Of a DNA stretch of 64,000 nt, positions 20,509-55,983 are shown in pieces. The notes beneath the pieces are model-generated. The model did no database searches. It saw only the letters and a list, made by a program, of their open reading frames with translations, and had not been told where the DNA came from. Every line of letters begins with the position of its first letter. The first letter of the stretch is position 1. The translations under genes and the position numbers were made by a program. This DNA is from Rhizobium sp. ICMP 5592. GTDB taxonomy: Bacteria > Pseudomonadota > Alphaproteobacteria > Rhizobiales > Rhizobiaceae. Location of the stretch: contig NZ_QSNT01000004.1 of the NCBI RefSeq assembly GCF_009498525.1, positions 1 through 64,000 on the forward strand, given 5' to 3'.

Positions 20509-20522
20509 AGGACGGCGAACTC

Positions 20523-30991: not shown

Positions 30992-32791
30992 TCAGGCCGG
31001 CTCGAACAACGGCGCGATCGTCATCTCCGGCACGAGCACCAAGCCTTTGTCGGTGATCCGGATTTCGGGAATGACGGAGAGCGGGATCAGATTGAAGCCC
31101 ATATAGGGGATGGTGCAGCCGGCCTTTTCCCATTCAACCTTCAATGCTTTCACTTCCTCAGCGACCTCATGCACGCGCTTGTCGGAGAGCAGCCCGGCAA
31201 TCGGTAAGGGCACCATGGCCGTCACCTTGCCGTCCATGACGACGCAAGCGCCGCCCTGCTTGGCGTCGATCGCATCCAGCGCGACCTGCATGTCCGCCTG
31301 GTTGGTACCGGCAACAATGATGTTGTGGCTGTCGTGCCCCACGGAAGAGGCGACCGCTCCCTTCTTCAAACCAAAGTTGCTCAGAAGACCATGTGCGACA
31401 TTGCCTGATGATTTGCCGTGGCGCTCGACCACCGTGACGAAGCAGAGGCCGTGACGGTCGAAATGCGTCTGCCAGTCATTGGCCGGTTCGAGTTCGACCG
31501 TGACATGGCCGAGCACGATGCCCGGCAATTCGGTCTTGATCGTATGGGCGATCACCGGCTCTGTTGGCAGCTCCGGTGTCAGTTTCAGGTTCTTCGGCAA
31601 TTTCACCGTATGGTAGGCGGCTTCCGGATAGCGATAGGGCTTGGACAGGGCGGCATCGAGGACCGGGGTAATCTTGCGGTTCTCGACCACCAGCTCCCCG
31701 CCATACCATGTACTCACCGGCTTCAGATCGTCGGTCAGAAGCACGAGATCGGCACGGCGCCCGCCGCCGAGGCCGCCGATTTCGTTCTCCATGCCGAAGC
31801 GGGTCGCGCCATGCAGCGAGCCCATGGCCCAGGCCTGCTCCGGCGTCATGCCGGCCACGACCGCCTGGCGCGTGACCCAATCGAGACCGAAGAGCAGCAG
31901 GTCGTCGGCGTCGCGGTCGTCGGTGCAGACAGCTATACGCTTGTGCGACGCGCCGAGTTCCGTGATGGTCTTGATCGCATGCGGCAGGCTATGCCACGCC
32001 GTCGTCGGCGGACCGCCGCGCAGGAAGAGCCAGATACCAGCTTCCAGCAGGTCGTCGGCGATTTCGCGGTCGATCGCCTCATGCGTATCGGTCACGCCGG
32101 AAGCGGCATAGGCGGCGACGAATTCCCGGCCGTAGACATGGCCCGAAACCGGGCGTCCGCGCTCAAGGGCCGCCGCCAGGATGGCATGGCTGCGCTCGTC
32201 ACCCATCGCTACGGGCACAAAATCCATCTTCTCACCAAGCGCCACGGCTTCCGGCCATTTGTCGAACAAGGCGGCGATCTTTCCTGGCGTCAGGTCGCCA
32301 CCGGCGGTTTCAAGCTCAGGCGACGTGGCCGGCACAGTGCTTGGCACGGTCAGGAAGATCGACAGCGGCGCATGGCGGGCATCCTCCAGCATCGCCTCGA
32401 CACCAGCAACATCCATGACATTACCGATTTCGTGGCTGTCGCAGAAGATCGTCGTCGTACCATTCAGAAGCGCCGCCTCGGCATAGGCACAGGCGGTCAC
32501 CATGCTCGACTCGATATGGATATGCGGATCGACGAGGCCGGGCGCGATAATCCCTCCCCTGGCGTCGTAAAGCTTGGCACCGCTGCCTCGATAGCTGCCC
32601 GCCGGCTTGACCGCGGCAATACGGCCGCCGGAGATCCAGATTTCCTTGTCGGCAAGGATGCGCTCGGAGTAGGTCGAGAGCACGCGCGCGCCCTGAATGA
32701 CCAGATCGGGATCGCGGCGGGCAGAGGCGACGTCGGCGAGCGTGCGGGTCAGGGTCGAGAGCGGTTTGACGGAAAAACGTGTGAGCGTCAT
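30992..32791 (-). CDS. ade: adenine deaminase
   Basis: A 599-residue amidohydrolase matching adenine deaminase in length and motifs: the metal site [13 protein letters not shown] (about residue 90), CDSHEIGNV, and the C-terminal-half motif [15 protein letters not shown]. It hydrolyses adenine to hypoxanthine and ammonia. It follows the GST-like gene by 18 bases and is the last gene of the minus-strand arm that also carries the Rieske and acylphosphatase-like genes, so it is probably cotranscribed with them. Activity on a modified adenine cannot be excluded. Confidence 0.92.
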
Positions 32792-32809: not shown

Positions 32810-33442
32810 TCAATGATAATCGGGAATGCCGGGCATGGTGCGGAAGCCGTCGATAGCGCGGAAACGACGCAGCCATCGGCGTAGCGCCGGATAGTCGTCG
32901 TGATTGACGCCGTAATCGCGGCTGAGCGCAAAGGATGGAAACAGTGTCAGGTCAGCAAGCGTCGGCTGATCGCCGACGAACCACTCGAACCCGTCGAAGT
33001 GGCGGAGCGTCATGTGGTCATCCATGATGCGGAACGCCTTGCGGGCGCCAGCGTTGAGGGCTGCCTCATCGCCCGACGTATCAAAGAGCGATTGCAGGCG
33101 CGCGGCAACAGCGGGCGCAAGCGCGGTCGCGGAGAAATGCAACCACATCGTCGTCAGAGCGAAATTCGCTGCCTCCTCGGGTAGCCAACGCCGCGCCGGA
33201 TCGTAAACCTTGGCGAGATAGGCAAGGATCGCTTCCGTACCGTGAAGCACGAGGTCGCCGTCGGTGAGCACCGGCATCGTTCCTAACGGATTAAGCGCCA
33301 GCATAGCTGGCTTCCTCTCCTCCTTACCCGGAAACATATCGACGGCGATTGTCTTATACGCAAGACCGAGCATGGAGAGCAACAATCGAACGCGATAGCT
33401 TCCCTCGTCCATCTCGTAATTATAAAGCGTGATCTCCGCCAT
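32810..33442 (-). CDS. glutathione S-transferase-like protein (NdmE-like candidate)
   Basis: A 210-residue protein with GST fold: N-terminal thioredoxin-like domain (ITLYNYEMDEGSYRVRLLLSMLGL, cis-Pro motif GTMPVLTDGD) and an all-helical C-terminal domain containing TLADLTLFPSFA. The ATG at 33442 shares its A with the stop of the Rieske gene (TGATG), so the two are translationally coupled. In Pseudomonas putida CBB5, the GST-like NdmE is a structural partner of the Rieske-less demethylase NdmC. The adjacency here to a Rieske-only protein suggests a similar scaffolding role rather than general detoxification, although a glutathione-linked step cannot be excluded. Confidence 0.85.
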   Translation of the reverse strand: MAEITLYNYEMDEGSYRVRLLLSMLGLAYKTIAVDMFPGKEERKPAMLALNPLGTMPVLTDGDLVLHGTEAILAYLAKVYDPARRWLPEEAANFALTTMWLHFSATALAPAVAARLQSLFDTSGDEAALNAGARKAFRIMDDHMTLRHFDGFEWFVGDQPTLADLTLFPSFALSRDYGVNHDDYPALRRWLRRFRAIDGFRTMPGIPDYH

Positions 33443-34104
33443 CAGGCGACCTCCGCCATAGTTTCGAGACTGAAGCGAAGTCCCTCGGCCCATTGTGCAT
33501 AATGCTTCTGCTTGGCCCCGGCATTGACCGCCGGCGAGCCGAGAATGACGATGTGAACGGCGGTCTTTTCCGGAGAGACGACCTGAACAGCAGTCAGCAA
33601 TCTGTCGCCGCCGAGCTGCAATATGCCGACATTCCTGGCGAGATTGGTCACGCCGGCATTTTTCAGCGCCGGCAAGATATCATCCTCCCCACGCTCGACA
33701 TAGAGGCTGCGCACTGGGGTAACGCCCATCGCCACGTCGATGTCCGGCAAGGAAGCTTCCGCAGCCGTTGTCGCCCAGATGATTCCGTATCTTTCCTCGG
33801 CGACGTAAGTCGGCACCTTGATCGTCTGCGGCACATCGAGGCTTGGATGCGCGGGGATGTAGCGACATTGCCCCGCGGTGTCGTACTGCCAGCCATGATA
33901 GAGACAGGCGATATGATCGCCGCGGACGAAGCCGAAGCTCAGGCGCATGCCGCGATGCGGACAGCGATCCTCCCAGACATGCGCCTTGCCGCTATTGTCG
34001 CGCCAGACGACGATCTCGCTGCCCTCGACGACGGCGCCCGCCGAAGTCCCTGCCTCAATCGATCCAGACAGGGCGACAGGCACCCATCCCGCTTCCAGTT
34101 TCAT
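33442..34104 (-). CDS. Rieske [2Fe-2S] domain protein, detached electron-transfer module
   Basis: A 220-residue protein with an intact Rieske cluster motif: C48-P-H50, sixteen residues, C67-L-Y-H70. Up to about residue 112 (EERYGIIWATT) it looks like the N-terminal part of a ring-hydroxylating oxygenase. Only about 100 further residues follow, without the N/D-H-H mononuclear iron motif, so it has no recognisable catalytic domain. It probably supplies electrons in trans to the Rieske-less catalytic subunit encoded at 39378. It overlaps the small acylphosphatase-like gene upstream by four bases and the GST-like gene downstream by one. Confidence 0.88.
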   Translation of the reverse strand: MKLEAGWVPVALSGSIEAGTSAGAVVEGSEIVVWRDNSGKAHVWEDRCPHRGMRLSFGFVRGDHIACLYHGWQYDTAGQCRYIPAHPSLDVPQTIKVPTYVAEERYGIIWATTAAEASLPDIDVAMGVTPVRSLYVERGEDDILPALKNAGVTNLARNVGILQLGGDRLLTAVQVVSPEKTAVHIVILGSPAVNAGAKQKHYAQWAEGLRFSLETMAEVA

Positions 34105-34337
34105 ATGTCACTCCGCTCGATATCGCGAATGATACAGTCATAAGGCCCGAGACTGCAGGCCATTTCGAAGGCGTCGACCAAATCTTCCTGCCCTTTGACG
34201 GCGAGCGTCGCCGACATCGCGTCACAAGATTCCATCTCGATGTCCAGATCCAGCCGCTGGGCTCGATGCTGCGCGAACTCGATGAAACTGTCGCAGACCA
34301 TTTGTCCTCGAAAGATAAATCGCGCCCGGTCGGTCAT
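34101..34337 (-). CDS. acylphosphatase-like small protein lacking catalytic residues
   Basis: A 78-residue protein whose full length matches the acylphosphatase layout: RARFIFRGQ..., a helix FIEFAQHRAQRL, the strand ATLAVKGQ, helix EDLVDAFEMACSLGP and a final strand CIIRDIER. The catalytic GxVQGVxFR loop is replaced by GQMVCDSFIEF, and the active-site Asn is not evident, so enzymatic activity is unlikely. It overlaps the Rieske gene start by four bases (ATGA) and opens the minus-strand purine operon. A role as partner or assembly factor is inferred from context only. The ATG at 34337 lacks a clear ribosome binding site. Confidence 0.68.
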   Translation of the reverse strand: MTDRARFIFRGQMVCDSFIEFAQHRAQRLDLDIEMESCDAMSATLAVKGQEDLVDAFEMACSLGPYDCIIRDIERSDI

Positions 34338-34510
34338 GTCGTGGAAAGTCCGTTCGCCCTAGCCATGCCTCACCTTGCGCATCAAAAATACTCAGAATGC
34401 ATAAAAAATATACATGCTTCACTTTTGGGCATTCTAGCCGCCCTCCCCCTAAAAATTCAAGAGACTTCCGAACCGGCTCAACAGACAGCATCGATCTCGC
34501 AAGCCGCAAC

Positions 34511-34526
34511 TGGCATAATTGTTGCG
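34511..34526 (+). promoter_or_regulatory. candidate sigma-54 (-24/-12) promoter
   Basis: TGGCATAATTGTTGCG matches the sigma-54 consensus TGGCAC-N5-TTGC, with GG at 34512-34513 and GC at 34524-34525 separated by exactly ten bases. It lies about 50 bases before the ATG of the purine binding-protein gene. It suggests that purine uptake is under RpoN and a nitrogen-responsive activator. No NtrC binding site was clear in the remaining ~170 bases of the divergent spacer. Confidence 0.65.
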
Positions 34527-34574
34527 TCGATTTCCTTCGGACGCAGTTGGCGTGCCAAACCAAAAGAGGATTTC

Positions 34575-35696
34575 ATGATTGACTTGCGTTCGCTGTCCCG
34601 TCGCGGATTTTTGAATATGAGCGCCGCCGGCGCTGCCGCTTTGACGCTGCCTGCCGGCTTTGCCAGCCAGGCGCTCGCGGCGGCATCCTTTCCGGCAATC
34701 AAGGAAGAGGATGCGGTCGTCGGCTTCGGCCATGTGGGGCCGATTTCGGATGAAGGCTGGACCTGGGCACATCACCAGGGCCTGCTCGCGGTCAAGGCCG
34801 CCTATCCGAAGCTGAAGAAGATCCTCGAAGTCGAGAACATCCCCTATTCGGCCGATGCGACGCGCACCTATCGCCAGTTCGTCAGCCAAGGCGCCAATAT
34901 CATCTTCGACACCTCCTCGAATGGTGACTTCCTGCACGCCGTGGTCAAGCAGGCCCCGGAGGTCGCATTCCTCGAATGCGGCGGCCTCGTCAACATGGAC
35001 AATCTCGGCTGGTATTACCTGGCGCACTGGTATCCGACCTATGTCATCGGTGTTGCCGCCGGCCACCTGTCGAAGACCGGCAAGCTCGGCTATGTCGCCT
35101 CCTTCCCGGTCTCGTCGGTTTTCGCCTCCACCAACGCTTTCTTGATGGGCGCTCGCTCCGTCAATCCGAATGCGACGCTACAAACCATCGCCATCAATTC
35201 CTGGTTCGACCCACAGGCCGCCACCCAGGCGGGCACGGCGCTGATCGACAATGGTTGCGACTTCCTGTTCGGCATCATGGACGAGGCCGGCTACCTGCAG
35301 GTCGCGGAAAAGCGCGGCGTCTGGGCCGCCATGTGGAACACCGACGTCCGCCGTTATGGCCCGAACTCCTACGTTTCCTCCGTCCTGATCGATTTCAACA
35401 AGTTCTATGTCGACCAAGTCGCCAAGCGCCTTGCCGGCACCTGGACGCCGAGCGACACGCTCTTTGCGATGGGCGCCGGTGTCGATCGCGACAAATGGGG
35501 TGAGAAGGTTCCAGCCGATGTCGCAGCAGCGGCCGACGCTGTGCGCGCGAAGATCATCGGCGGCTGGTCGCCGTTTGCCGGCGAGATCAAGGATTCGACC
35601 GGCAAGGTCCGTGTCGCTGCCGGCCAGGCAATGACCGACAACGATCTCTACAACTGGGATTGGTCGGTTGAAGGCGTCACAGGCCTGAGCGCCTGA
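34575..35696 (+). CDS. BMP family (purine/nucleoside) ABC transporter binding protein
   Basis: A 373-residue BMP/PnrA-type substrate-binding protein. The N-terminus MIDLRSLSRRGFLNMSAAGA resembles a Tat signal (SRRGF, hydrophobic core, ALAAA cleavage). Mature motifs include GFGHVGPISDEGWTWAHHQGL, IIFDTSSNG and YVASFPVSSVFASTNAF. BMP proteins bind nucleosides or purine bases. An AAGAGG ribosome binding site precedes the ATG at 34575. It heads the plus-strand arm and is followed by a perfect hairpin before the ATPase gene. Confidence 0.9.
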   Translation: MIDLRSLSRRGFLNMSAAGAAALTLPAGFASQALAAASFPAIKEEDAVVGFGHVGPISDEGWTWAHHQGLLAVKAAYPKLKKILEVENIPYSADATRTYRQFVSQGANIIFDTSSNGDFLHAVVKQAPEVAFLECGGLVNMDNLGWYYLAHWYPTYVIGVAAGHLSKTGKLGYVASFPVSSVFASTNAFLMGARSVNPNATLQTIAINSWFDPQAATQAGTALIDNGCDFLFGIMDEAGYLQVAEKRGVWAAMWNTDVRRYGPNSYVSSVLIDFNKFYVDQVAKRLAGTWTPSDTLFAMGAGVDRDKWGEKVPADVAAAADAVRAKIIGGWSPFAGEIKDSTGKVRVAAGQAMTDNDLYNWDWSVEGVTGLSA

Positions 35697-35720
35697 TCGA
35701 ATTCCTTGCCCAACAAGAAT

Positions 35721-35741
35721 CTGGCCGGCATGCCCGGCCAG
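35721..35741 (+). terminator. hairpin between binding-protein and ATPase genes
   Basis: CTGGCCGG (35721-35728) pairs perfectly with CCGGCCAG (35734-35741) across a 5-base loop, 24 bases after the stop, with no U-tract. It probably stabilises binding-protein mRNA or attenuates transcription into the ATPase and permease genes. Confidence 0.65.
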
Positions 35742-35774
35742 AGTTGCTCTTCATGACATTCTGGTGCCTTTCCG

Positions 35775-37349
35775 ATGACTGAGACCGCGACACCCTTCTC
35801 CGCGCCCCCGGGCACACCGCCTCTGGTGCAACTCAAGGGCATCGCCAAATATTTTCCGGGTGTCATCGCTAATGAGGATGTCGATCTCGACGTCCTGCCG
35901 GGCGAGATCCACGCACTGCTCGGAGAGAACGGCGCCGGCAAATCGACCTTGATGAACATCCTCACCGGTATCTACCAACCCGATGCCGGTGAAATCATCA
36001 TCGACGGTTATGTCAAGCAGTTCGCCACGCCGCTTCAGGCGATCGCGACCGGTATCGGCATGGTGCATCAGCATTTCAAGCTGGTGCAGGCCTTCACGGT
36101 GGCCGAAAACATCCATCTCGGCTGGTCGGAGACGCCGCGCCGCGCCTCCGCTCAGATCTTGGAAGCACGCACGGCGGCATTGGCTGCGAAATTCAATCTG
36201 CAAACCCGCCCCGGCGCCCGTGTCAGCGATCTCTCCACCGGCGAACAGCAGCGCGTGGAGATCCTGCGTGTCCTGGCAAGGCAGGCCCGCGTGCTGATCC
36301 TGGACGAACCAACCGCCGTGCTGACGCCGGCGGAAGCCCGCGAACTGTTCAAGGCACTGCGCGATTTCGTGGCGCAGGGCAACGCCGTCATCTTCATCAG
36401 CCACAAGCTCGATGAAGTTCTGGAGATTTCCGATCGCATCAGCATCCTGCGCGGCGGTCGCAAGATTGCCACGGAGAAGACTGCCGATTGCAATCCGCGC
36501 ATGCTCGCCAAGCTGATGGTCGGACGTGACATCGTGCTCGCAGACATGCGGCAACGCGTGGCAGGTGCTACGCCGATCTCGCCTGAACCAGTGCTCAGCC
36601 TCGACAATGTATCCGCCCTCAACGATGCCGGCGACGAAGCCTTGCATGAAATCTCGCTGCAGGTCCATGCGGGCGAGATCCTGGGAGTGGCGGGCGTGGC
36701 GGGCAATGGCCAGCGTGAACTCAGCCAAGTGCTGGCAGGCATGCGGCCGGTCAGCGGTGGACGTATCCTAATCGAGAGAGAGCCTGTCGGCCGCAGCAAC
36801 GCCGCCACCTTCGTCGAGCACGGCATCGGTCATATCCCGGAAGACCGTTTGCATAGCGGCTTGGCGCCGGCGCTCAGCATTACCGTCAATGCAGTGATGC
36901 GCGAATATAAGCACCCTCCGGTTTCATCCGGCGGCGTTTACCGTCCGGGTGCAGCGACGGCGCTTGCCAAGGAGATCGCAGCGGTCGCGGATGTCACTAT
37001 TCCGGATTTCGGCATGCCCATCCGCAATCTCTCGGGCGGAAACCAGCAGCGTCTTGTTGCCCGCCGCGAGATGCGTGTCGCGAACAAGGTGCTGATCGCC
37101 GCCTATCCAAGCCGCGGCCTTGATGTCGGCGCCATCAACACCATGCTGCGTTATATCGTCGAACTGCGCGACGCTGGTGCGGGCATCGTGCTGATTTCCG
37201 AGGAACTGGAAGAGCTCTTGAACCTCTCGGACCGCATCGCCGTCCTCTATGAAGGCAAAGTCATGGGGACTTTGGAAAACGACAAGGCCGATATCGACCA
37301 GATCGGCCTGATGATGGGCGGCCTTGCCCAAATGCGTGAGGTTGCCTGA
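35775..37349 (+). CDS. purine/nucleoside ABC transporter ATPase (double cassette)
   Basis: A 524-residue tandem ATPase like NupA/YufO and sugar-type RbsA. The first cassette has Walker A GENGAGKST, signature LSTGEQQRV and Walker B VLILDEPTAVLTP. The second has a degenerate Walker A (GVAGNGQRE), signature LSGGNQQRL and YPSRGLDVGA. It energises the two permeases encoded downstream; one base separates its stop from the next start. Confidence 0.92.
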   Translation: MTETATPFSAPPGTPPLVQLKGIAKYFPGVIANEDVDLDVLPGEIHALLGENGAGKSTLMNILTGIYQPDAGEIIIDGYVKQFATPLQAIATGIGMVHQHFKLVQAFTVAENIHLGWSETPRRASAQILEARTAALAAKFNLQTRPGARVSDLSTGEQQRVEILRVLARQARVLILDEPTAVLTPAEARELFKALRDFVAQGNAVIFISHKLDEVLEISDRISILRGGRKIATEKTADCNPRMLAKLMVGRDIVLADMRQRVAGATPISPEPVLSLDNVSALNDAGDEALHEISLQVHAGEILGVAGVAGNGQRELSQVLAGMRPVSGGRILIEREPVGRSNAATFVEHGIGHIPEDRLHSGLAPALSITVNAVMREYKHPPVSSGGVYRPGAATALAKEIAAVADVTIPDFGMPIRNLSGGNQQRLVARREMRVANKVLIAAYPSRGLDVGAINTMLRYIVELRDAGAGIVLISEELEELLNLSDRIAVLYEGKVMGTLENDKADIDQIGLMMGGLAQMREVA

Positions 37350-37350
37350 C

Positions 37351-38394
37351 ATGGCCGCATCCTGGCGTTTCCAGCGCATGCCCTCCGCCTCGCCCGCCAT
37401 TGCCTTTGGCGCACGCATTGCCGCCATTCTTCTGGCATTGGTCTTCGCCGGCCTCATCCTGGCCGCCACCGGCGCCAACCCACTGGAGCTTGCCTCGGAA
37501 GTGATCGATGCGAGCTTCGGTTCCAGCTTCGGCCTTCAGGATCTCGGCGTTCTCGTGATACCGCTGATCTTGACCGGACTATCGGTTGCGGTCGGCCAGC
37601 AGATCGGTGTCTGGAACATCGGCGCCGAGGGGCAATTTTATGCCGGTGCCTTCGCCGCCGCCACGGTCGGCCTCTTCGTGCCGGGACCACCGGTCGTGAT
37701 CCTCCCGTTGATGTTCATTGCCGGCCTTGCTGGCGGCGCTGTCTGGATCCTCATCCCGACGCTCGCTCGCGCCTATGGCAACGTCAACGAGCTGATCACC
37801 ACCCTGCTCCTCAACTTTGTTGCCGTCCTCCTGGTCTTCTACGTCGCCACAAGCGCCTGGCGCGACCGGATGGCGAATTCGGCGACGCGGAGACTGTCGG
37901 CCGAAATCCCCACGCTTTGGGGATCGGTCCATTGGGGTTTCCCGATTGCCATTCTTGCCGCCCTCATCGTCGCGGGCGTGCTGGCCTTTTCGCGCTGGGG
38001 TTATGAAGTCCGGCTCGTCGGTTCCAACCCTTCGGCGGCGCATTATGCCGGCATGCCGGCGCGGCGCCATCTCATCACCGTGATGCTGCTCTCCGGCGCA
38101 ATCGCCGGGCTTGCCGGCATGCTGGAAATCGCCGGTACGGTGCACCGTTTGCAGGGCGGCATATCCAACAATTACGGCTATCTCGGCATCATGGTCGCGG
38201 TTCTCGCGCGCAACTCCGCCATCGGTGTCATCTTCTCCGCCGCGCTGATGGCCTTCATCCTCAATTCCGGCATCATCCTGCAGACCCAGGGGCTGACGAC
38301 ATCGGCGGTGCTGGCGATCACCGGGCTTATCCTGTTTCTGACGGCAATTGGCGACGAACTCGCCCATTACCGCATCGCCCGCGACAAGGCTTGA
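37351..38394 (+). CDS. purine/nucleoside ABC transporter permease
   Basis: A 347-residue inner-membrane permease of the BPD_transp_2 family (RbsC/YufP-like) with eight to ten transmembrane helices. The conserved VGQQIGVWNIGAEGQFYAGA and the cytoplasmic loop around VGSNPSAAHYAGMPARRHL are typical of nucleoside permeases. The start MAASWRF at 37351 follows the ATPase gene directly. Confidence 0.9.
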   Translation: MAASWRFQRMPSASPAIAFGARIAAILLALVFAGLILAATGANPLELASEVIDASFGSSFGLQDLGVLVIPLILTGLSVAVGQQIGVWNIGAEGQFYAGAFAAATVGLFVPGPPVVILPLMFIAGLAGGAVWILIPTLARAYGNVNELITTLLLNFVAVLLVFYVATSAWRDRMANSATRRLSAEIPTLWGSVHWGFPIAILAALIVAGVLAFSRWGYEVRLVGSNPSAAHYAGMPARRHLITVMLLSGAIAGLAGMLEIAGTVHRLQGGISNNYGYLGIMVAVLARNSAIGVIFSAALMAFILNSGIILQTQGLTTSAVLAITGLILFLTAIGDELAHYRIARDKA

Positions 38395-38408
38395 AGGGAA
38401 ACGAGACC

Positions 38409-39344
38409 ATGGAACTTCTGACCGGCCTGCTCACCACAGCCTTCCTGGCCGGCGGCGTACTGGCGCTCGCCGCGCTCGGTGAAGTGCTTGCCGAACGTGT
38501 CGGGGTTGTCAATCTTGGCGTCGAGGGCCTGATGGCGATGGGAGCGATAACGGCGATTGCGACGGTCGCGGCCTTCCCCTCGCCGGCAATCGGCTTCATC
38601 GCCGCGCTGGCAGTCGGCGCGGTCTTCGGCATGCTGTTTGCCGCCGCCACCGTTTTGCTGCGCGCCAATCAGGTGCTCTGCGGTCTGGCGCTGACGCTGA
38701 TGGGCAACGGCATTGCCTCCAGCATCGGCCGCGCCTATTCCGGCATGCCGGCCCGCGCCACCTTTTCCGGGATCGCTATCCCGCTGCTGAGCGATATCCC
38801 CATTTTCGGCAAGGCGTTCTTCTCGCAGAACATCCTCGTCTATCTCATCTACATCATTCTTCCGGTGGCACTGAGCTACATCATGTTCCGCACCCGCCAC
38901 GGCCTCAACTTGCGCGCCGTCGGTGAAAATCCGGCCGCAGCCGACGCCGCCGGCATTCCGGTCAATCTTATCCGCTTCGCTTATGTCACCGCCGGCTCAG
39001 CCCTTGCAGCAGGAGCCGGCGCCTACCTGACGCTCGCCTTCGTGCCCTCCTGGTCCGACGGCGTGATTGCCGGGCGCGGCTGGATCGCGGTGGCGCTAGT
39101 AATCTTTGCCGGATACCGGCCGATCCCCGCCGTTCTCTCCGGCCTGCTTTTCGGCCTTATCACCGCGCTCGGCTTCGTCGGCCAGGCGCGCGGCTGGCCG
39201 ATCGCGCCCGCCTTTCTATCCATGCTGCCCTATCTCGGCACCATGGCCTTCATCATCGTGCCGGTCCTTGCCTGGCAGCGCATGCGCCGTATCATGGCAG
39301 CACCCGCCGCAATCGGCCTGCCCTATTATCGCGATGTCCGCTAA
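38409..39344 (+). CDS. purine/nucleoside ABC transporter permease
   Basis: A 311-residue second permease (YufQ/NupC-like) with about eight transmembrane helices. Family motifs are AERVGVVNLGVEGLMAMGA and the loop LRAVGENPAAADAAGI. The ATG at 38409 has AAGGGAAACGAG upstream; an in-frame TTG at 38391 is less likely. It completes the BMP-type transporter and is followed 33 bases later by the oxygenase gene. Confidence 0.9.
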   Translation: MELLTGLLTTAFLAGGVLALAALGEVLAERVGVVNLGVEGLMAMGAITAIATVAAFPSPAIGFIAALAVGAVFGMLFAAATVLLRANQVLCGLALTLMGNGIASSIGRAYSGMPARATFSGIAIPLLSDIPIFGKAFFSQNILVYLIYIILPVALSYIMFRTRHGLNLRAVGENPAAADAAGIPVNLIRFAYVTAGSALAAGAGAYLTLAFVPSWSDGVIAGRGWIAVALVIFAGYRPIPAVLSGLLFGLITALGFVGQARGWPIAPAFLSMLPYLGTMAFIIVPVLAWQRMRRIMAAPAAIGLPYYRDVR

Positions 39345-39377
39345 AGTGGATCGATGAACAAGGAAAAGGAGCGTCGC

Positions 39378-40235
39378 ATGAGCCCATGTTCCGACAAGGC
39401 AGCTCTCGATCATTGGTACGCGCTTGAGACGGAAAAGGAGATTCCATTCGGAACCTCCGCAAACCGTCTTCTCGGCACCAGTCTTACGGTCACCCGCAGC
39501 AGCGACGGCACGGTGATCGTCAAAGCCGAAGGCCGGGAAGAGCCGCTGCCGCTGATTAAGCGCTTCGGCCTCGTCTGGACGACGCTCGGCACCCCGCCCG
39601 GCGGACTTTTCGATCTGCCGGAAGCCGATGAGCCGGACCGACGCGTCGTCAATTGCGGCACGGTCGCGGTGCGCGCCTCGGGGCTGCGGATCGTCGAGAA
39701 TTTCCTCGATCTGGCGCATTTTCCCTTCGTCCACACCGATATTCTCGGCGCCGAGCCGCACACCGAGGTGACGCAATACAATGTCGAGATCCGCCGCGAT
39801 GTCGATGAGGTCTGGGCGACCAATTGCCAGTTCTTCCAGCCACAGGCAGCCCTTTCGGCCAGCGAAGGCATCATGACCGATTACATCTATCGCGTCATGA
39901 CCCCGTTTACGACCCTGCTCTACAAGACCTGCCCGAACGCGGCCAACCGCTGGGATGTGATCTGCCTCTTCGTGCAGCCGCTCGATCCCGACCGCTGCCG
40001 CGCCCATCCGGTGATGTTCCTGATCGACGATGTCTCAACGACCACGGAGCTGGTACATTTCCAGCAGCTTATTTTCCTGCAGGATCGCATCATTCTTGAG
40101 AACCAGCGCCCCGTGCTGCTACCACTGGAGCCGCGCGCGGAAATCCCGACGCGGGCCGACGCCACCTCGATTGCCTATCGCCGCTGGCTGAAGGAAAAGG
40201 GTATCACCTACGGCACGACGATGATGGCCGCCTGA
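39378..40235 (+). CDS. Rieske-less oxygenase catalytic subunit (NdmC-like candidate)
   Basis: A 285-residue protein related to the catalytic part of VanA/Ndm-type Rieske oxygenases. The mononuclear iron site is intact: N108-D111-H114-H119 in ENFLDLAHFPFVH, with the later carboxylate in FLQDRIILENQRP. Residues 12-40 (HWYALETEKEIPFGTSANRLLGTSLTVTR) align with the segment before a Rieske domain, and residues 61-71 (KRFGLVWTTLG) with the segment after it. Only about 20 residues join them, so the Rieske domain is precisely missing. It must receive electrons from another protein, most plausibly the Rieske protein encoded at 33442. NdmC, the N7-demethylase of methylxanthines, has this same defect. 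The ATG at 39378 follows AAAGGAG; an ATG at 39354 is an alternative. Confidence 0.88.
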   Translation: MSPCSDKAALDHWYALETEKEIPFGTSANRLLGTSLTVTRSSDGTVIVKAEGREEPLPLIKRFGLVWTTLGTPPGGLFDLPEADEPDRRVVNCGTVAVRASGLRIVENFLDLAHFPFVHTDILGAEPHTEVTQYNVEIRRDVDEVWATNCQFFQPQAALSASEGIMTDYIYRVMTPFTTLLYKTCPNAANRWDVICLFVQPLDPDRCRAHPVMFLIDDVSTTTELVHFQQLIFLQDRIILENQRPVLLPLEPRAEIPTRADATSIAYRRWLKEKGITYGTTMMAA

Positions 40236-40246: not shown

Positions 40247-41605
40247 ATGGATTTACGCGGCAAGACGCTGAGCGCATCGGGTTTTCACTCGCCCGAGCGC
40301 GGCAAGATAGACGTTCTGGACGACGTGCTGATCGAGATCGATGCCGACGGCGCGATCACCGCCATTCATCGCCACGGCGATCCGAATTACCGGACCATTC
40401 GCGATGCCCGCGAAGCATCCGGCGAACTCGTGACACTGCGGTCCGGCTCCTACATTCTGCCCGGCTTCGTCGACCTGCATGTGCACGCGCCGCAATATCC
40501 GCAGCTCGGCGACGCGCTCGACGTACCCCTCGAGGTCTGGCTGCAGAAATACACTTTCCCGCTGGAAGCACGTTACCAGGATGCGGCTTTTGCCCGCCGC
40601 GTCTATGGCCTGCTGGTCGAGGACCTGCTTGCCAACGGCACGACCACCGCCCTCTATTTCGCCACCATCCATCAGGAAGCGACGCGAGTGCTGGTCGATA
40701 CCTGCCTGGAAAAAGGCCAGCGCGCCCTGATCGGCAAGGTGGCGATGGACAACGCCGAGGAATGCCCGGATTACTATCGCGACCTGTCGCCGGAAAAGGC
40801 GCTCGACGGCACGCGGGCGCTGATCGATTATGTTCGCAGCCATCCGGACAATCATGAGGGGCGCGTGCTCCCCGTCGTCACGCCGCGGTTCATTCCCTCC
40901 TGCACCGACGCGACGCTCGAAGGTCTCGGTGCCATCGCCAAAGAATGCGGCTGCCATGTGCAGACCCATTGCTCGGAGAGCGATTGGGCACATGGCTATG
41001 TGCTCGCCCGCCATGGCATGACGGATACCGACAGCCTCGATCGCTTCGGGCTGCTTGGACGAAAGACCGTTCTGGCGCACGCAAATTTCTTGACGGCGAA
41101 GGACATGGAGACCGTCAAGGCGCGCAAGACAGCGGTTGCGCATTGTCCGCTGTCGAATGCCTATTTCGCCAATGCCGTCTTTCCCTTGCGCGCTGCGCTC
41201 GAAAAGGGACTGCATGTCGGTCTCGGCACGGATATTTCCGGCGGCCCGAGCGCGTCGATGCTTGAAAACACGCGGGGCGCGATCCTCGTCTCGCGGATGC
41301 TGCAAAGCGGCGTCGACCCGAACCTGCCGCCTGCCGCGCGCTCAACCTTCGGCCCGGCACAGATCGATTTCCGCGATGCTTTCTATATCGCCACATCGGG
41401 CGGCGGCATTGCGCTCGATCTGCCTGTGGGGCAGTTTGCGCCCGGCTATCAGTTCGATGCCGTGCTCATCGACACCGAAGCCGAGAAGGGCACCGTCCGG
41501 CTGTTCGAAGACCGCGACGAAGGCGAAGGCATCCTGCAGAAGATCATCTACACCGCATCGAAGCCAAACCTCACTGCCACTTGGGTCGGCGGCCGCAAGG
41601 TCTAA
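40247..41605 (+). CDS. guaD: guanine deaminase
   Basis: A 452-residue amidohydrolase. The zinc site GFVDLHVHAPQYPQLGD (about residue 77) is diagnostic for guanine deaminase, followed by CHVQTHCSES, VLAHANFL, AHCPLSNAYF and the aspartate in GLGTDISGG. It converts guanine to xanthine and ammonia; some homologues accept modified guanines. It follows the oxygenase gene by 11 bases, implying that the two act on one pathway. Confidence 0.9.
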   Translation: MDLRGKTLSASGFHSPERGKIDVLDDVLIEIDADGAITAIHRHGDPNYRTIRDAREASGELVTLRSGSYILPGFVDLHVHAPQYPQLGDALDVPLEVWLQKYTFPLEARYQDAAFARRVYGLLVEDLLANGTTTALYFATIHQEATRVLVDTCLEKGQRALIGKVAMDNAEECPDYYRDLSPEKALDGTRALIDYVRSHPDNHEGRVLPVVTPRFIPSCTDATLEGLGAIAKECGCHVQTHCSESDWAHGYVLARHGMTDTDSLDRFGLLGRKTVLAHANFLTAKDMETVKARKTAVAHCPLSNAYFANAVFPLRAALEKGLHVGLGTDISGGPSASMLENTRGAILVSRMLQSGVDPNLPPAARSTFGPAQIDFRDAFYIATSGGGIALDLPVGQFAPGYQFDAVLIDTEAEKGTVRLFEDRDEGEGILQKIIYTASKPNLTATWVGGRKV

Positions 41606-41616: not shown

Positions 41617-43887
41617 TTAGGCGGCCTTGGTGATGCGTACCGGCAACGACTTATAAGACGGCGTGCCGCTTTGCTTGTCCTGATAGTCGATCGGGATCAG
41701 GCAATTCGCCTCCGGATAATAGGCGGCAACCGAGCCCCGCGCGATATCGTAGGAAATCGCCGTCAGCTTCATTCGCCGCTTGCCGCCGGAGGGCAATGCC
41801 GTCGAGATCTCGACGAGGTCGCCATGCTCCAGGCCGTTCGCTGCCAGGTCTCCATCATTCATGAACAGCACGTCGCGCCGGCCGAAGACGCCGCGATAGC
41901 GATCGTCGAGGCCATAGATCGTCGTATTGTACTGGTCATGACTGCGGATGGTGGCGAGCTTCAGGACGCTCGCGTCGGCAAGCTCCTTGTCCTCGTTGAG
42001 ACCCGGAAATAACAGAAACTCTGCCTTGCCCGACGGCGTCTTCCAGACGCGCTCAGTCGGTCCGATAGGCAAACGGAAGCCGCCGGGCACGCGAATGCGC
42101 TCGTTGTAGCGCTCGAAATCGGGGAAGACGATCTCGATCTTGTCGCGGATGCGGTCGTAGTCGTCGACCAGATGCATCCACTCGACCTTGCTATTGGGCA
42201 AGGTCGCCTGCGCCATGGCCGCGACGATTGCCGGCTCTGAGCGCAATTGATCCGAGGCTGGCTTCAGCTTGCCGCGCGAGGCATGCACCATCGACATGGA
42301 ATCTTCGATCGTCACCGATTGCGGACCGGAAGCCTGGATGTCCACTTCGGTACGCCCGAGGACCGGCAAGATGATCGATTCCTTGCCGATCAGCAGGTTC
42401 GAGCGGTTGAGCTTGGTATTCATGTGGACGGCGAGATCGAGCTTACGCATGGCTTTCGCGCAAAGCTCCGGATCGGGAAGCGCGATGGCGAGATTGCCAC
42501 CAAGGCTCAGCAGTATCTTCGATCTTCCCTCCGCCATTGCCTGCATGCCGGCAACCGCGTCATGCCCATGATGTTCCGGTGGCTTGAAGCCGAAAGCGCG
42601 CTCGATGCCGGCGAGCAGCGCGGCATTGGGCTTTTCAGTGATCCCGACCGTTCGGTCGCCCTGGACGTTGGAATGACCACGCAGCGGGCAGATGCCGGCG
42701 CCGGGCTTGCCGAAATTACCGCGCAGCAGCAGCAGATTGGCGATCTGCTGCACATTGTAGGTGCCCTTGGCGTGCTGGGTAATACCCATGCCGTAGGGAA
42801 TGATCGTCGCCTTGGATTTGACGTAGGCGTCGGCCACCCGCTCGAGATCGGCGCGCGTCAGGCCGGAGACGCGCTCGATATCGGCCCATTCCGTCTGCTT
42901 GAGATCGGCGGTGAGCGCATCGAAACCATTGGTGTGTTCGGCGATGAAGGCATGATCGATCGCATCCGGCGATACCTCCGCCAGCGCCAGCACCGCTTTC
43001 ATGATGCCCTTGAGCGCTGCCGCATCGCCGCCGATCTTGACCTGATAATAGGAGGAAGCGATGCGGGTAGAACTGAAGGTACCCATCTCGACCGGGCTCT
43101 GCGGATCGGCGAAGCGCTCGAGCGCCCGCTCCTTCAGCGGATTGAAGACGATGATCGGCACGCCGCGCTTCGAACATTCATGCAGCGTCCCCATCATGCG
43201 CGGATGATTGGTGCCGGGATTGTGGCCCATCGAGATGATCAGGTCGCAATGATCGAAATCGTCGAGCGATACCGTGCCCTTGCCGATGCCGATCGAATTC
43301 GGCAGGCCGGTGCTCGTCGCCTCGTGGCACATGTTGGAGCAATCGGGGAAGTTGTTGGTACCGTATTCGCGCGCATAGAGCTGGAACAGGAAGGCGGCCT
43401 CGTTGGAGGCGCGGCCGGAAGTGTAGAATTCCACCATATCCGGATCGGGCATGCTGCGCATGATTTCGCCAATCCGGGCAAAGGCTGCCTCCCATTCAAT
43501 CGGCTTGTAGGTATCCATCGCACTGTCATAGACCAGCGGATGCGTCAGCCGGCCGGTATTCTCCAGGTCGTAGTCGCTCCACTGGAGCAGCTCGGTCACG
43601 GTATGCTCGGCGAAGAATTCGGGCGTCACACGTTTGTTCGTCGCTTCCCACGTCACGGCCTTGGCGCCGTTTTCGCAGAACTGGAAGGTCGAGGTATGTT
43701 CCTTGTCGGGCCAGGCGCAGCCGGGGCAATCGAAACCATCCGGCTTGTTGGTGCGAAACAACAGCAGCGGCGCCTCGGTCACATCCATCTGCTCGCGGAC
43801 AGCTTTTGCGGTGGCTTTAAGCGCACCCCAGCCGCCGGCGGGGCCGCTGTAAGGACGGATACCCGGGACTTCACGTTTCTGCACCAT
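41617..43887 (-). CDS. FdhF/YdeP-type molybdopterin oxidoreductase
   Basis: A 756-residue bis-MGD oxidoreductase related to formate dehydrogenase H, of the YdeP/CbbBc group. The N-terminal FDCPGCAWP and later Cys (FQFCENG) could hold an Fe-S cluster. The active-site segment DCSNMCHEATSTGLPNSIG has Cys where FdhF has selenocysteine. C-terminal molybdopterin dinucleotide-binding motifs follow (SHDQYNTTIYGLDDRYRG). The ATG at 43887 has a GAAGGAG ribosome binding site. It converges on guanine deaminase. Formate oxidation would fit disposal of formaldehyde from a demethylase, but YdeP family substrates are uncertain. Confidence 0.85.
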   Translation of the reverse strand: MVQKREVPGIRPYSGPAGGWGALKATAKAVREQMDVTEAPLLLFRTNKPDGFDCPGCAWPDKEHTSTFQFCENGAKAVTWEATNKRVTPEFFAEHTVTELLQWSDYDLENTGRLTHPLVYDSAMDTYKPIEWEAAFARIGEIMRSMPDPDMVEFYTSGRASNEAAFLFQLYAREYGTNNFPDCSNMCHEATSTGLPNSIGIGKGTVSLDDFDHCDLIISMGHNPGTNHPRMMGTLHECSKRGVPIIVFNPLKERALERFADPQSPVEMGTFSSTRIASSYYQVKIGGDAAALKGIMKAVLALAEVSPDAIDHAFIAEHTNGFDALTADLKQTEWADIERVSGLTRADLERVADAYVKSKATIIPYGMGITQHAKGTYNVQQIANLLLLRGNFGKPGAGICPLRGHSNVQGDRTVGITEKPNAALLAGIERAFGFKPPEHHGHDAVAGMQAMAEGRSKILLSLGGNLAIALPDPELCAKAMRKLDLAVHMNTKLNRSNLLIGKESIILPVLGRTEVDIQASGPQSVTIEDSMSMVHASRGKLKPASDQLRSEPAIVAAMAQATLPNSKVEWMHLVDDYDRIRDKIEIVFPDFERYNERIRVPGGFRLPIGPTERVWKTPSGKAEFLLFPGLNEDKELADASVLKLATIRSHDQYNTTIYGLDDRYRGVFGRRDVLFMNDGDLAANGLEHGDLVEISTALPSGGKRRMKLTAISYDIARGSVAAYYPEANCLIPIDYQDKQSGTPSYKSLPVRITKAA

Positions 43888-44028
43888 AGCTCGCTCCTTC
43901 AACTGTCTTCCAAGACTCCCTCCCCGAGCCTGGACGATTGACCAATATTCTTCGGACGTTAGCGAGTAAAGTACAATAGATCGATCTCTCGCCGGCACAA
44001 CAAAAAGGGAGGCACGAGCCGTTGGAAT

Positions 44029-44994
44029 TCAGTTCTTGAAAACCAGACAGGTGCCGCCCTGCTGGCGGATCTGGGCGCAAACCTCTTCCGCTTCCGCGCG
44101 TGTTTCCCGGCCGATGCGGGCGGCGTAACGGACGCGGAAGCCGAAGCTGCCGTTACGCTGGCGCACGATGAGAGGTTTCTCCCTATTGAGCGGCGCGGAA
44201 AGCTTGCCGATATCCTCGAAAAACAGGCGGCGGGCGGCGGCGGGCTGAAAATGCTCGGCAAGCTGCACGCCCCAGGGCGCCCAGGCACGCTCCTGCTGCA
44301 ATGCGACCTGTTTCAGCCGGCGGGTGCCGGCGAGCGCCATGCAGGCCTCCAGAAAGGATTTGCTTTTGTCGAGTTCCGGTGCTGCGATCTCGGGCGGATC
44401 ATCCTTCCATTGCTCAACCGTATAGGCGGTGATCGCCGCCACGTAGCTGCGCGTCTCGTAGGGAAGGCTGCCGGAATTGAGAAAATTCGCCAGACCGTTT
44501 TCGCCGGCATTATAGGCCGCGGCCGCAAACCCCAGATTGCCGAAACGGCCACGCAATTCATCGAGATAGACGGCTGCCTTCCCCAGCGCTTCCAAGAGAT
44601 CGTAGCTGTCGCGAACGCCGCGCAATCTCGCCGTTCCCGGCATGAACTGAGCAATGCCCTGCGCGCCCTTCGGGCTGATGGCGTCGGGCCGAAACATGCT
44701 TTCGCGCCAGATCAGCCGGGCGAGATAGTCCGGCGGAAGCTCATTGGCATGGGCGAAATAGTCGATCGCCTTGCAGAGATCGCGATTGTAGCTTTCCTTG
44801 CGGATGCAGAGCGTTTCCCCGGTATCGGTGATGAACGGTCCGGAAATGCAGGACGGCGGCGCTACGCTCCATTCGGGTTGCGCCCTTGCGGGAACAACGA
44901 CGGACATCAAGACGCCGAATGCAACAACGAAACCTATGGTCTTTCCGACAAAGCCGGGCCAAAGCTGTCTGCCTGCCATTCGTGCGAAACCCAT
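44029..44994 (-). CDS. periplasmic lytic murein transglycosylase (SLT domain)
   Basis: A 321-residue protein with a signal peptide (hydrophobic VGKTIGFVVAFGVLMSVVVPARA|QP) and an SLT/goose-lysozyme domain: catalytic Glu in LIWRESMF, then DAISPKGAQGIAQFMPGTA and AAYNAGENG. The C-terminal ~60 residues resemble an SPOR-like tail (QRNGSFGFRVRYAARIG...EEVCAQIRQQGGTCLVF). It releases anhydro-muropeptides from peptidoglycan, the substrates of the recycling genes upstream. An internal ATG at 44979 is a possible start. Confidence 0.88.
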   Translation of the reverse strand: MGFARMAGRQLWPGFVGKTIGFVVAFGVLMSVVVPARAQPEWSVAPPSCISGPFITDTGETLCIRKESYNRDLCKAIDYFAHANELPPDYLARLIWRESMFRPDAISPKGAQGIAQFMPGTARLRGVRDSYDLLEALGKAAVYLDELRGRFGNLGFAAAAYNAGENGLANFLNSGSLPYETRSYVAAITAYTVEQWKDDPPEIAAPELDKSKSFLEACMALAGTRRLKQVALQQERAWAPWGVQLAEHFQPAAARRLFFEDIGKLSAPLNREKPLIVRQRNGSFGFRVRYAARIGRETRAEAEEVCAQIRQQGGTCLVFKN

Positions 44995-45085
44995 TGGAAA
45001 CCGTCAAATCGCTAGGTGAGCTCTAGATAGCATCGATCCGCGACGACGAAAACCGTAAAGGCTGCAATGACGGCTGCGATGCAAT

Positions 45086-46201
45086 CTACTCGGCAAGACG
45101 GCCGCCGCGCATCGGCGCGGGCACGCCTGTCGTGCCGGGGAAGCTGATCGGCAGGCCCCGAAGCACGCGCACGGCCAGGAACGCGAAACATTCGGCTTCG
45201 ACGGCATCGCCGCGCCAGCCAAACATTTCGGCCCCGATCGGCGTTACCCCGGCGCGCGTCTCGAGCATCGACATGATCGTCGGATTGTGGCGGCCGCCAC
45301 CACTCACCACCAGTTTCTTCGGACGACGCGGCAGCAGGTCGAGTGCCTTGCCGACAGCCGAAGCCGTGAAGGCGGAAAGCGTTGCCGCTCCATCCTCGAC
45401 ACCAAGCCCATCGGCCATGGAGGCGCCGAAATCGAAGCGATCCAGCGATTTCGGATAGGGAGCACTGAGATAGGGATGCTCCAAAAGCTTGCCGAGCCTT
45501 ACCTCATCCACCGTACCCGCCTGACCGAGCGCACCATCCCTGTCCATCTCGCCGAGGCCATGGGATTTGATGAAGTCATTGAGCGGGGCATTGGCCGGCC
45601 CGGTGTCGAAGGCAACGAAATTGCCCTCTCCATCCGACCAGGTGATGTTGGCGACGCCACCGAGATTGAGGATGGCCGTGTCATCGCCAGTGCCCGCGCT
45701 GCGCAGCAAGGCTGTATGATAGGCGGCGGCGAGCGGCGCACCCTGACCGCCTGCACGCACATCGGCAGAACGGAAATCATAGGCGACCTTCGTGCCGAGG
45801 ATGGAATGCATCAGCTCGCCATCGCCGAGCTGGCGCGTGTCGCCGAGGCGACCTTTCTGCGGCGCGCGATGCAGTACGGTCTGGCCGTGGAAGCCGACCA
45901 CGCCGATATCGGCCATGGTCAGGCCAAAGCCTTCGACAAGCTCCTTGACCGCAGCCGATTGGGCACGCGTCAATGCCTCCTCAGCCTCCTTGAAAATCTC
46001 CGGTTCCGGCCCGTTGAAATTCCAGACCCTTGCCTGCGCCAAGGTCTCTTCCAGCAGCCGCCTGATCCAGTCCGGATAGGGCGCCAGCGCATAGGGGCCG
46101 AATTCCGCGATCCGCTCACCATCGGTCTTGATCAAGGCGACATCGATATTGCCGTCGAGAACGGTTCCGGTCATCAGACCGACTGCCCAGATTGGTTCCA
46201 T
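45086..46201 (-). CDS. anmK: anhydro-N-acetylmuramic acid kinase
   Basis: A 371-residue AnmK homologue: [24 protein letters not shown] (the canonical family has MSGTSLDG), [23 protein letters not shown] and NLGGVANIT. It converts anhydroMurNAc to MurNAc-6-phosphate, the substrate of the MurQ encoded in the same regulon. The change of Ser to Thr in the first motif (MTGT) and VLDG for SLDG are mild deviations. It starts ten bases after the serine hydrolase stop. Confidence 0.92.
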
Positions 46202-46211
46202 GATCAAGCTC

Positions 46212-47231
46212 CTAGGCTTTATTGATAAGATCGCCGACGCCCTGGCGAAGCGCCAGGATCCCGCTGTCGAAATGGCGGGTCGGATGAATGCGGTTGGTGA
46301 GCAGGGTCCAGGCCCTACCCTTGTCGAAATCGATCCAGAGGCCGGTGCCGGTAAAGCCGGTATGTCCGATCGTGCCCGACGAACATAGCCGACCGCCGGA
46401 CCAGTCATCATAGGGGCGCTCCCAGCCATGGGTGCGCGTCGCCGACAGGGGCGTCCGCATCAGGGCAATCGCGCGTTCGGCGGCACCAGCTCCGGTCAGC
46501 AATCCCTCGGCGAAATCGAGGACCGAGGCAGCCGTTCCGAACAGGCCGGCATGACCGGCACCCTCCAGCGCCGAGCAATTGTCGTCATGGACCTCACCCG
46601 AGAGCACGCGATGACGCCAGGTGCAGTCTTCCGTGGCAGCCGCCTGATCAGGCGCTGCGGAAAAGGCAAAACCGGGACCGGCGTCCATATCGCGGATTGT
46701 CTGCCCGGTCAGGCGCTCCAGCGCGAAGCCGAGCAGGATAAAGTTGATGTCGGAATAGACGGGCGGACCGGCCCGCCATTCGCGCTGCAGTATGAAAGCG
46801 CGCAGCAGATCGGGGGACTGTCCATAGGTGTAAAGCGGCTCTACAGCGGGGAACGGCGTCTGGTGGCCGAGGCACTCGCGGAAAGTCACCTTCCGCTCCC
46901 AGGCCGAGGCATCATATTGGCGCAGGTCCGGCAGCAGCGTAGTCAGCGGCGCGTCGAGATCAATCGTGCCTGCCTCCGCCAAAGCCAGGATACGCGGTGT
47001 CGTGAAAATGACCTTGGTGAGCGAGGCCAGATCGAACCATGTGTCGGTCAGCATCGGCCGTGTGACCGGAATCGTCTGCGCCGAGCCGACCGCCCGGATC
47101 ATGCGGCCGCCATCGAGATCGACAATGCCGAGCACGCCGCCCGGAATACGCCCCGCCGCAACGGCGGCTTCGACAGATGCGAATGCCCGGTCGAAACGCT
47201 GTGCGAATTCCGTTTTCCCCACCGCCGTCAT
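46212..47231 (-). CDS. serine hydrolase, beta-lactamase/esterase family
   Basis: A 339-residue protein of the beta-lactamase/penicillin-binding fold. The nucleophile motif is SLTK (in [16 protein letters not shown]), the second motif [12 protein letters not shown] supplies the Tyr, and GHTGFTGTG takes the third-motif position. No signal peptide is evident from the ATG at 47231, so it is probably cytoplasmic. Its place between a peptide ABC transporter and anmK suggests it trims or hydrolyses imported muropeptides rather than conferring drug resistance. GGGAGG precedes the start. Confidence 0.85.
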
Positions 47232-47251
47232 GTCCCTCCCCGCCGCCTCTC

Positions 47252-50789: not shown

Positions 50790-50816
50790 GAAACGTCCTC
50801 TAGAACAGGCTTTCCA

Positions 50817-52337: not shown

Positions 52338-52404
52338 TCTTTTTGCCCCCTGAGCTTGCTACCCCAGCCGATTTTGGCCATTTCTTTATGCTTGCGATAT
52401 CACT

Positions 52405-53328: not shown

Positions 53329-53545
53329 GGGCCTGTTCTCGAAATTATGCGCCGATATCAATGGATCGGGATGGCGAGCTCGATCGATAGCGATCGGACC
53401 AGCCGCAGCAGCCGTGAAATTTTTCAACGCAACAAAACACTCGACATCAGCTCTGGCGGCCGGCCTCTTCGGCTTCGTTCTCCGCCCATTCCCTGTTTAC
53501 CTTCGTTAAGATTATGTCTGTTTATTCCGATCGTCAACTATTTAA

Positions 53546-53560
53546 GGAATAAAATATTCC
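53546..53560. promoter_or_regulatory. RpiR/MurR-type operator upstream of murQ
   Basis: GGAATAAAATATTCC is a GGAAT-N5-ATTCC inverted repeat in the gap between the amino sugar kinase and murQ genes. The same pattern and spacing recurs at 55844-55858 beside the RpiR gene, so both probably bind that regulator. Confidence 0.75.
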
Positions 53561-53600
53561 ATATTCAACGTAAGAAATCCGGCGCCAATGCATCGTTCTT

Positions 53601-55744: not shown

Positions 55745-55841
55745 GATATGAAACCCGCCGAAGAAAGGGGCGAAGGAGCCGGCGACATCGCATCCGACTC
55801 TCATTCAAAACTATTCGGTCATTCCACCATGTCAATGTTGT

Positions 55842-55860: not shown

Positions 55861-55983
55861 CTGTTTATGCTAACCTCAGCGGGCGACTGGCCGAGAGCAT
55901 GGTTGTTCGTTTCCAACCGAATGCTATCTTTGTGGCTCGACCGTATCGACGCATAAACCGGCCTCCATGGCCTGAAGGGGCGG

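Follow-up and report, generated by a model that had tools for sequence, protein, structure and literature searches.

Organization of the locus

The window analyzed here, a 64,000-nucleotide stretch of Rhizobium sp. ICMP 5592 (contig NZ_QSNT01000004.1, positions 1 to 64,000, taken as a whole), carries three genes that probably encode a single oxygenase of the NdmCDE type, in which the two metal centers lie on two complementary alpha-type subunits. The first gene, on the minus strand at 33442-34104, encodes a stand-alone Rieske subunit of 220 amino acids (here called RSK), with an intact Rieske domain and a vestigial catalytic domain that lacks iron ligands. The second, also on the minus strand (32810-33442), encodes an NdmE-like subunit resembling glutathione S-transferases (GST; families GST_N and GST_C). 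The third, on the plus strand at 39354-40235, encodes the catalytic subunit (OXY; 293 amino acids), which has an intact mononuclear iron site and is missing the Rieske cluster loops. The original prediction for this DNA had named a TGATG coupling of the Rieske gene to the GST-like gene and a catalytic subunit about 5 kb away on the other strand; the TGATG shared by the RSK stop and the GST-like start was read directly in the sequence, and RSK and OXY lie on different strands with 5.25 kb between them.

The genes around these three encode a putative importer and purine deaminases. Divergent from RSK, and all on the plus strand, are genes for a BMP/PnrA-type substrate-binding protein (34593-35696, start approximate), the ATPase of a BMP-type ATP-binding cassette (ABC) importer (35775-37349), whose homologs are similarly placed in relatives, and two ABC transporter permeases (37324-38394, start uncertain, and 38391-39344), each with a same-place gene annotated as a permease in a relative. 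OXY follows the second permease gene after 9 bases and is itself followed, after 11 bases and on the same strand, by a guanine deaminase gene (GuaD; 40247-41605) that scored 415.7 bits against an NCBIfam equivalog cut-off of 375.4. Downstream of the GST-like gene, an adenine-deaminase-family protein is encoded on the minus strand at 30992-32791; its score of 350.9 bits was under the equivalog cut-off of 472.5. No Rfam RNA, such as a xanthine riboswitch, reached the gathering threshold between 28000 and 46000.

Complementary metal sites in RSK and OXY

The Rieske and mononuclear iron ligands were not found on one polypeptide but were divided between RSK and OXY. In RSK, Rieske was the sole family above the Pfam cut-offs (E 1.2e-23), and C48, H50, C67, and H70 were kept in 148/148 aligned homologs, a set that contains near-duplicates through the overlap of named and unnamed loci and that was reduced to 79 by thinning at 75% identity. 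D..H....H patterns occurred in two of the 148, near residue 14 and outside the catalytic region. In the predicted model of RSK (pLDDT 93.9), 220/220 residues aligned to residues 2 to 308 of GxtA (Z 20.6, root mean square deviation [rmsd] 3.2), and residues ~128-219 were predicted to fold as what is left of a catalytic domain.

In Pfam, OXY matched only VanA_C above the cut-offs (E 3.6e-22), and no Rieske family came up at any E value up to 1. Residues N116, D119, H122, H127, and D244 were present in 184/184 homologs and a CxH..CxxH motif in 0/184, again with near-duplicates in the set (66 were left after thinning at 80% identity). Asp119 is presumably the bridging aspartate, judging from the general motif. 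The predicted model of OXY (pLDDT 86.8) aligned over 274 residues to residues 1 to 334 of SxtT (Z 31.6, rmsd 2.1). Profile comparison identified the N terminus as a Rieske-domain remnant, with a probability of 95 to RSK and 97 to full-length oxygenases, lacking the part that corresponds to RSK residues ~48-95. Profile comparison and predicted structure thus both indicated that OXY retains the shell of a Rieske domain from which the cluster loops are gone.

The two halves had been described beforehand as a Rieske-only protein with C48/H50 and C67/H70 and no iron site, and as an oxygenase subunit with an intact N-D-H-H site and no Rieske domain. The ligands, the missing iron site of RSK, and the missing cluster motif of OXY all stand, but the domain descriptions were too simple, since RSK has a predicted catalytic remnant and OXY keeps a clusterless Rieske shell. 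Both predicted models have the two-domain fold of an alpha subunit. To judge from these models, RSK and OXY probably both derive from complete alpha subunits, each of which lost the opposite metal site, and the presence of both remnants would argue for duplication with complementary loss rather than plain fission of one gene. SxtT and GxtA (SxtDIOX) and NdmA/NdmB, which rank first or close to first among solved sequences and folds for both halves, differ from them in being complete oxygenases with both metal sites on one polypeptide.

Co-occurrence of the subunits across genomes

The window's family was sampled with 247 genomes, one per species; OXY and RSK were found in the identical 58, and the remaining 189 had neither. 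OXY matched 60 of the 247 at E<=1e-10, from which G030 and G049 were dropped because their matches (26-27% identity) lay within full-length oxygenases; for RSK, the line at 58 genomes was set by a score gap between 87.5 and 75.5 bits, below which the matches were mostly frames of full-oxygenase length. RSK was stand-alone (open frame of 216-356 amino acids) in 42/58 genomes and fused to a reductase of the phthalate dioxygenase reductase (PDR) type, as in NdmD (582-853 amino acids), in 19/58, with both forms in three (G160, G214, and G221), so that the unfused branch is the commoner one in this family.

A similar association was seen in the 80 named loci, which are the best 80 of 554 confirmed loci (588 stretches) and lean toward close, stand-alone relatives. 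These loci include Rhizobium, Bradyrhizobium, Devosia, Gluconacetobacter, Acetobacter, Asaia, Gluconobacter, Celeribacter, and Telmatospirillum. RSK and GST genes lay within 10 kb of OXY in 78/80, and in the other two RSK was elsewhere in the genome. Stand-alone RSK directly adjoined GST or OXY (same strand, with -40 to +120 bases between the match ends) in 121/126 cases: GST in 88, OXY in 34, and both in one. Loci overlap between the collections, and the gene counts are not independent. GST genes are otherwise sparse, with eight matches at E<=1e-8 across the 6.7-Mb genome of the window. Absence of co-occurrence had been named in advance as an outcome that would speak against a split oxygenase; the halves instead proved to be inherited together.

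Gene architectures and phylogeny

Several gene arrangements were distinguished among the relatives. In the window type, RSK-GST-adenine deaminase is divergent from BMP-ABC-permeases-OXY-guanine deaminase. A compact operon, RSK-OXY-GST-amidohydrolase-BMP-ABC-permeases, occurs in, for example, Rhizobium sophoriradicis, Rhizobium etli, and Shinella. A four-part operon, RSK-OXY-GST-reductase, was found in L093, L097, L098, and L110, with FrmA nearby in three of them. The fused type consists of OXY, an RSK-reductase fusion, and GST, and occurs in Sinorhizobium, on a Klebsiella plasmid, and in others; two OXY copies were present in 18/22 of these loci. One such fusion (L100) matched phthalate dioxygenase reductase (2pia, E 4.9e-66) and the ferredoxin domain of NdmD (6icm_D, E 2.9e-18). 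Finally, 14/80 named loci, some of them on short contigs, had RSK-GST opposite OXY and, within the stretch examined, no match to any purine or BMP gene tested.

A second OXY gene also accompanied unfused RSK: one stand-alone RSK was found with two OXYs in 14/42 stand-alone genomes, in two of which the match to the second OXY contains a stop codon. In Rhizobium tumorigenes and others, the second OXY lies ~12-18 kb off, among genes for an amidohydrolase, xanthine-dehydrogenase-like proteins, a GMC oxidoreductase, and a split thiamine diphosphate (ThDP) enzyme. The pairing of one RSK with two OXYs suggests that the unit would be modular. On balance we favor, with some reserve, an obligately heteromeric oxygenase family in which a shared RSK/GST electron unit serves one or two exchangeable OXYs and in which NdmCDE is the branch with RSK fused to its reductase; if this is true, a new catalytic subunit would need no electron chain of its own.

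The trees, built by a quick method, settle neither the root nor the direction of change (fusion versus fission). OXY formed a single clade (SH-aLRT support 99) apart from eight full-length oxygenases. Within it, OXYs grouped by the form of their partner, fused (20 rows, support 81) or stand-alone (44 rows, support 87), and the Klebsiella OXY and one Xanthobacteraceae OXY were unplaced. The Rieske tree (128 columns) gave a fused clade (98) and a stand-alone clade (91), with one change of state.

Some individual loci had further features. Beside the fused cluster of L092 (15715-19061) are genes for a complete Rieske oxygenase, a GcvT-like protein (named by reading the translation), and a separate PDR-type reductase, which places two kinds of Rieske oxygenase within one cluster. 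The fused cluster of the Klebsiella pneumoniae plasmid (L213) is flanked by transposase genes, as in a mobile catabolic island, and is accompanied there by two further oxygenases, a second one annotated as ring-hydroxylating and one dependent on 2-oxoglutarate. On a Cupriavidus sp. EM10 plasmid (L218), homologs of OXY, RSK, and the reductase are spread over several frames, possibly as a decayed cluster, and these pieces were left out of the RSK and OXY sets; S-(hydroxymethyl)glutathione dehydrogenase and nucleobase symporter genes are also annotated in that record. In G084 and in G224, the match to the second OXY is interrupted by one in-frame TAA, which may reflect decay, sequence error, or an alignment-end effect.

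Candidate electron donors

No reductase gene was matched within the window in a search confined to the PDR/VanB type, without chains of a ferredoxin plus a glutathione-reductase-type protein; this is in line with the original prediction, in which none was visible. Nor was a dedicated PDR/VanB-type reductase for RSK and OXY found in the rest of the genome. The best match (C18:487018, L200) sits among genes that resemble those of dimethylamine monooxygenase when their translations are read. Each of the other matches lies within about 2 kb of another oxygenase-length Rieske gene, and none looks orphan. In the reductase tree, four-part and fused reductases fell in separate clades, the exception being the fused reductase of Klebsiella, which grouped with one from Cupriavidus; sisterhood of the clades was unresolved, and an outgroup row (L208) with a very long branch was placed within the fused clade.

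Relation to NdmCDE and proposed mechanism

In Pseudomonas putida CBB5, N7-demethylation of methylxanthine uses the Rieske-less oxygenase NdmC, the Rieske-bearing reductase NdmD, and the GST-like protein NdmE. For the comparison, clusters of Klebsiella and Sinorhizobium stood in for the CBB5 sequences. The window shares with NdmCDE a Rieske-less catalytic subunit (OXY), a GST-like partner gene (32810-33442), a Rieske domain on another protein, and a purine-type substrate, the last of these being probable here. NdmD, however, combines Rieske domain and reductase in one polypeptide, whereas in the window RSK is a separate 220-amino-acid protein with neither a reductase nor formaldehyde-detoxifying genes nearby. 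The clusters of the Klebsiella pneumoniae plasmid (L213) and of Sinorhizobium meliloti (L199) contain OXY, RSK, and GST homologs together, as the window does, but differ in that RSK is fused to a PDR-type reductase and in that their OXYs are 46-49% identical to that of the window. The fusion of RSK to an NdmD-like reductase in this sister branch ties RSK to NdmCDE.

Earlier reports describe 18 organisms with NdmCDE-homologous clusters, Sinorhizobium and Mesorhizobium for the most part (PMC4408171), genera that would fit the fused branch; scattered ndm homologs near ABC transporters in other bacteria (PMC8055839); NdmE as a constant GST-like partner for NdmCDE (PMC4408171, PMC13237722); and NdmCDE as a 3:3:3 complex of 360 kDa (PMC10380055). 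No description of the unfused RSK/OXY form was found in the literature searched, whose coverage was without most subscription journals, and the form seems to be undescribed so far.

We consider it likely that RSK, OXY, and the GST-like protein make up one oxygenase. In this mechanism, RSK would take the place of the neighboring alpha subunit in a complex with OXY, and its cluster would pass electrons across the subunit boundary to the iron of OXY through the Asp119 bridge. In known Rieske oxygenases, the cluster lies ~12 A from the iron of the neighboring subunit (PMC12445004). OXY keeps the bridging aspartate even though its own cluster is gone, as would be expected if a Rieske partner sits across the boundary, and RSK is the constant candidate for that partner. 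The GST-like protein may hold the RSK-OXY pair together, as proposed for NdmE, and by analogy with NdmCDE a stoichiometry of 3:3:3 would be a fair guess. A separate reductase would feed RSK; in the four relatives with a four-part operon it is encoded alongside, and in the genome of the window it would come from elsewhere. With less certainty, the BMP-type ABC transporter may import a purine, most likely an N-alkylated one, whose dealkylation would yield a base for the guanine and adenine deaminases encoded alongside. The earlier proposal of a related three-part oxygenase with a stand-alone Rieske module is supported by the co-inheritance, the adjoining genes, and the NdmD-like fusions in relatives; the overly simple domain terms attached to it had to be revised.

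Several findings weigh against this reading. The catalytic remnant in RSK is weak by sequence (a 23-column hhalign match of its C terminus to the catalytic domain, probability 70) and rests on the predicted model. PDR-type reductase matches were not enriched (25/39 stand-alone genomes versus 24/39 control genomes, which were hand-picked from those without a Rieske-less OXY), and 14 of the 39 stand-alone genomes had no such match at E<=1e-25; these 39 are the 42 stand-alone genomes minus the three that also have a fused copy, and they include G067 and G179 with four-part operons. Formaldehyde genes, which a demethylase would lead one to expect, were found near 10/20 fused-type and 3/4 four-part loci and near no window-type or compact locus. 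The 14 named loci without tested purine or BMP genes show that the link to purines does not hold everywhere. At the OXY locus L111, neither RSK nor GST is nearby, a fused RSK being elsewhere in the genome; this locus is a real exception, whereas some other OXY stretches are without RSK merely through the 20-kb cut, with RSK in a neighboring locus. In the Rieske tree, a complete oxygenase of Leptolyngbya (L216) falls in an unresolved fork with both RSK clades, and a single origin of RSK is thus not established.

Rieske oxygenases pass electrons from one subunit to its neighbor, a central rule that is hard to dissect in homotrimers whose subunits each carry both centers. With the centers on different genes, donor and acceptor can be mutated, labeled, and counted separately. 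The arrangement also suggests a new view of NdmCDE, in which the Rieske-bearing reductase would be a former alpha subunit fused to a reductase and the GST-like protein would be a partner that stays constant in dozens of species. In rhizobia, acetic acid bacteria, and roseobacters, the family points to an oxygenase that is widespread and probably acts on purines.

Substrate and alternative explanations

Genes for a BMP protein were present in 61/80 named loci, for an adenine-deaminase-family protein in 41/80, and for guanine deaminase (at least 45% identity) in 31/80, and loci of relatives also encode amidohydrolases resembling 8-oxoguanine deaminase and deoxyadenosine/S-adenosylhomocysteine (SAH) deaminase. 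The transporter, the guanine and adenine deaminases, and these amidohydrolases together suggest a purine as the probable substrate, which would be either N-dealkylated or hydroxylated on the ring. Dealkylation of an N-modified purine is ranked first and ring hydroxylation second, neither strongly. Canonical XdhB was above the cut-off in 20/20 genomes checked; ordinary xanthine oxidation would thus already be covered, which speaks for a modified purine. No FrmA or Gfa match was found in the window, and FrmA at 68-100% identity was present in 13/160 loci (L078 and L082 had only 28-32% matches). The lack of formaldehyde genes at window-type and compact loci argues against a simple carry-over of the NdmCDE demethylase function.

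The foremost alternative, which we regard as possible but the less probable, is that the same split enzyme hydroxylates the purine ring, for example at C8 of guanine or xanthine, or hypoxanthine, as HpxDE does. The deaminases and the nearby molybdenum-type genes would then form one plain purine-catabolic route, a picture that agrees with the lack of close formaldehyde genes at window-type and compact loci in the stretches examined. The 8-oxoguanine-deaminase-like amidohydrolase of the compact operons would fit hydroxylation at C8 of guanine, although it scored 370.8 bits against a cut-off of 532; its best PDB match was 7ww2. HpxD, annotated as a molybdenum-independent xanthine hydroxylase, provides a complete relative from purine catabolism; it is, however, distant (32% identical to OXY), and HpxDE combines a complete oxygenase with a separate PDR/VanB reductase and has no GST gene in the stretch read, unlike the split subunits of the window. 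Moreover, with XdhB in every genome checked, a second xanthine/hypoxanthine oxidase would be needless unless molybdenum is short.

It is improbable that RSK is a mere Rieske-type ferredoxin of the BphA3/CarAc kind, supplying OXY or other oxygenases, with OXY as a new kind of Rieske-less oxygenase. RSK is small, and its model does align with the naphthalene-dioxygenase ferredoxin 2qpz over 101 residues (Z 15.9), but at 220 amino acids it exceeds the ~100 of such ferredoxins, and its nearest sequences are the Rieske domains of terminal oxygenases (SxtDIOX, E 1.5e-24), the best ferredoxin being far behind at 3.2e-6. The second folded domain of its model, the alignment of all of RSK to whole alpha subunits, and the constancy of its partner also favor the split oxygenase. 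That the two proteins are leftovers, decayed oxygenases of independent origin that neighbor each other by chance and no longer cooperate, would account for the metal site missing from each but is very improbable, because every aligned homolog keeps the ligands of its remaining site and the pair is co-inherited in 58/58 genomes.

Other observations at the locus and in the window

Convergent with the guanine deaminase gene, a formate-dehydrogenase-like molybdopterin oxidoreductase, named from its translation, is encoded on the minus strand at 41617-43998; in the Rhizobium tumorigenes record, guaD is not followed by such a gene. The guanine deaminase matches of L046 and L060 come in two pieces, possibly through decay, sequence error, or an alignment-end effect. 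Farther away, the plus strand at 16378-21833 encodes a single-module protein of 1376 amino acids resembling nonribosomal peptide synthetases, followed by a UGT-like glycosyltransferase. The region 44029-56844 is likely a cell wall recycling cluster, with translations resembling a lytic transglycosylase, AnmK, a peptide ABC transporter, MurQ, a sugar kinase, MurA, and RpiR; the genes of both regions were named by reading their translations.

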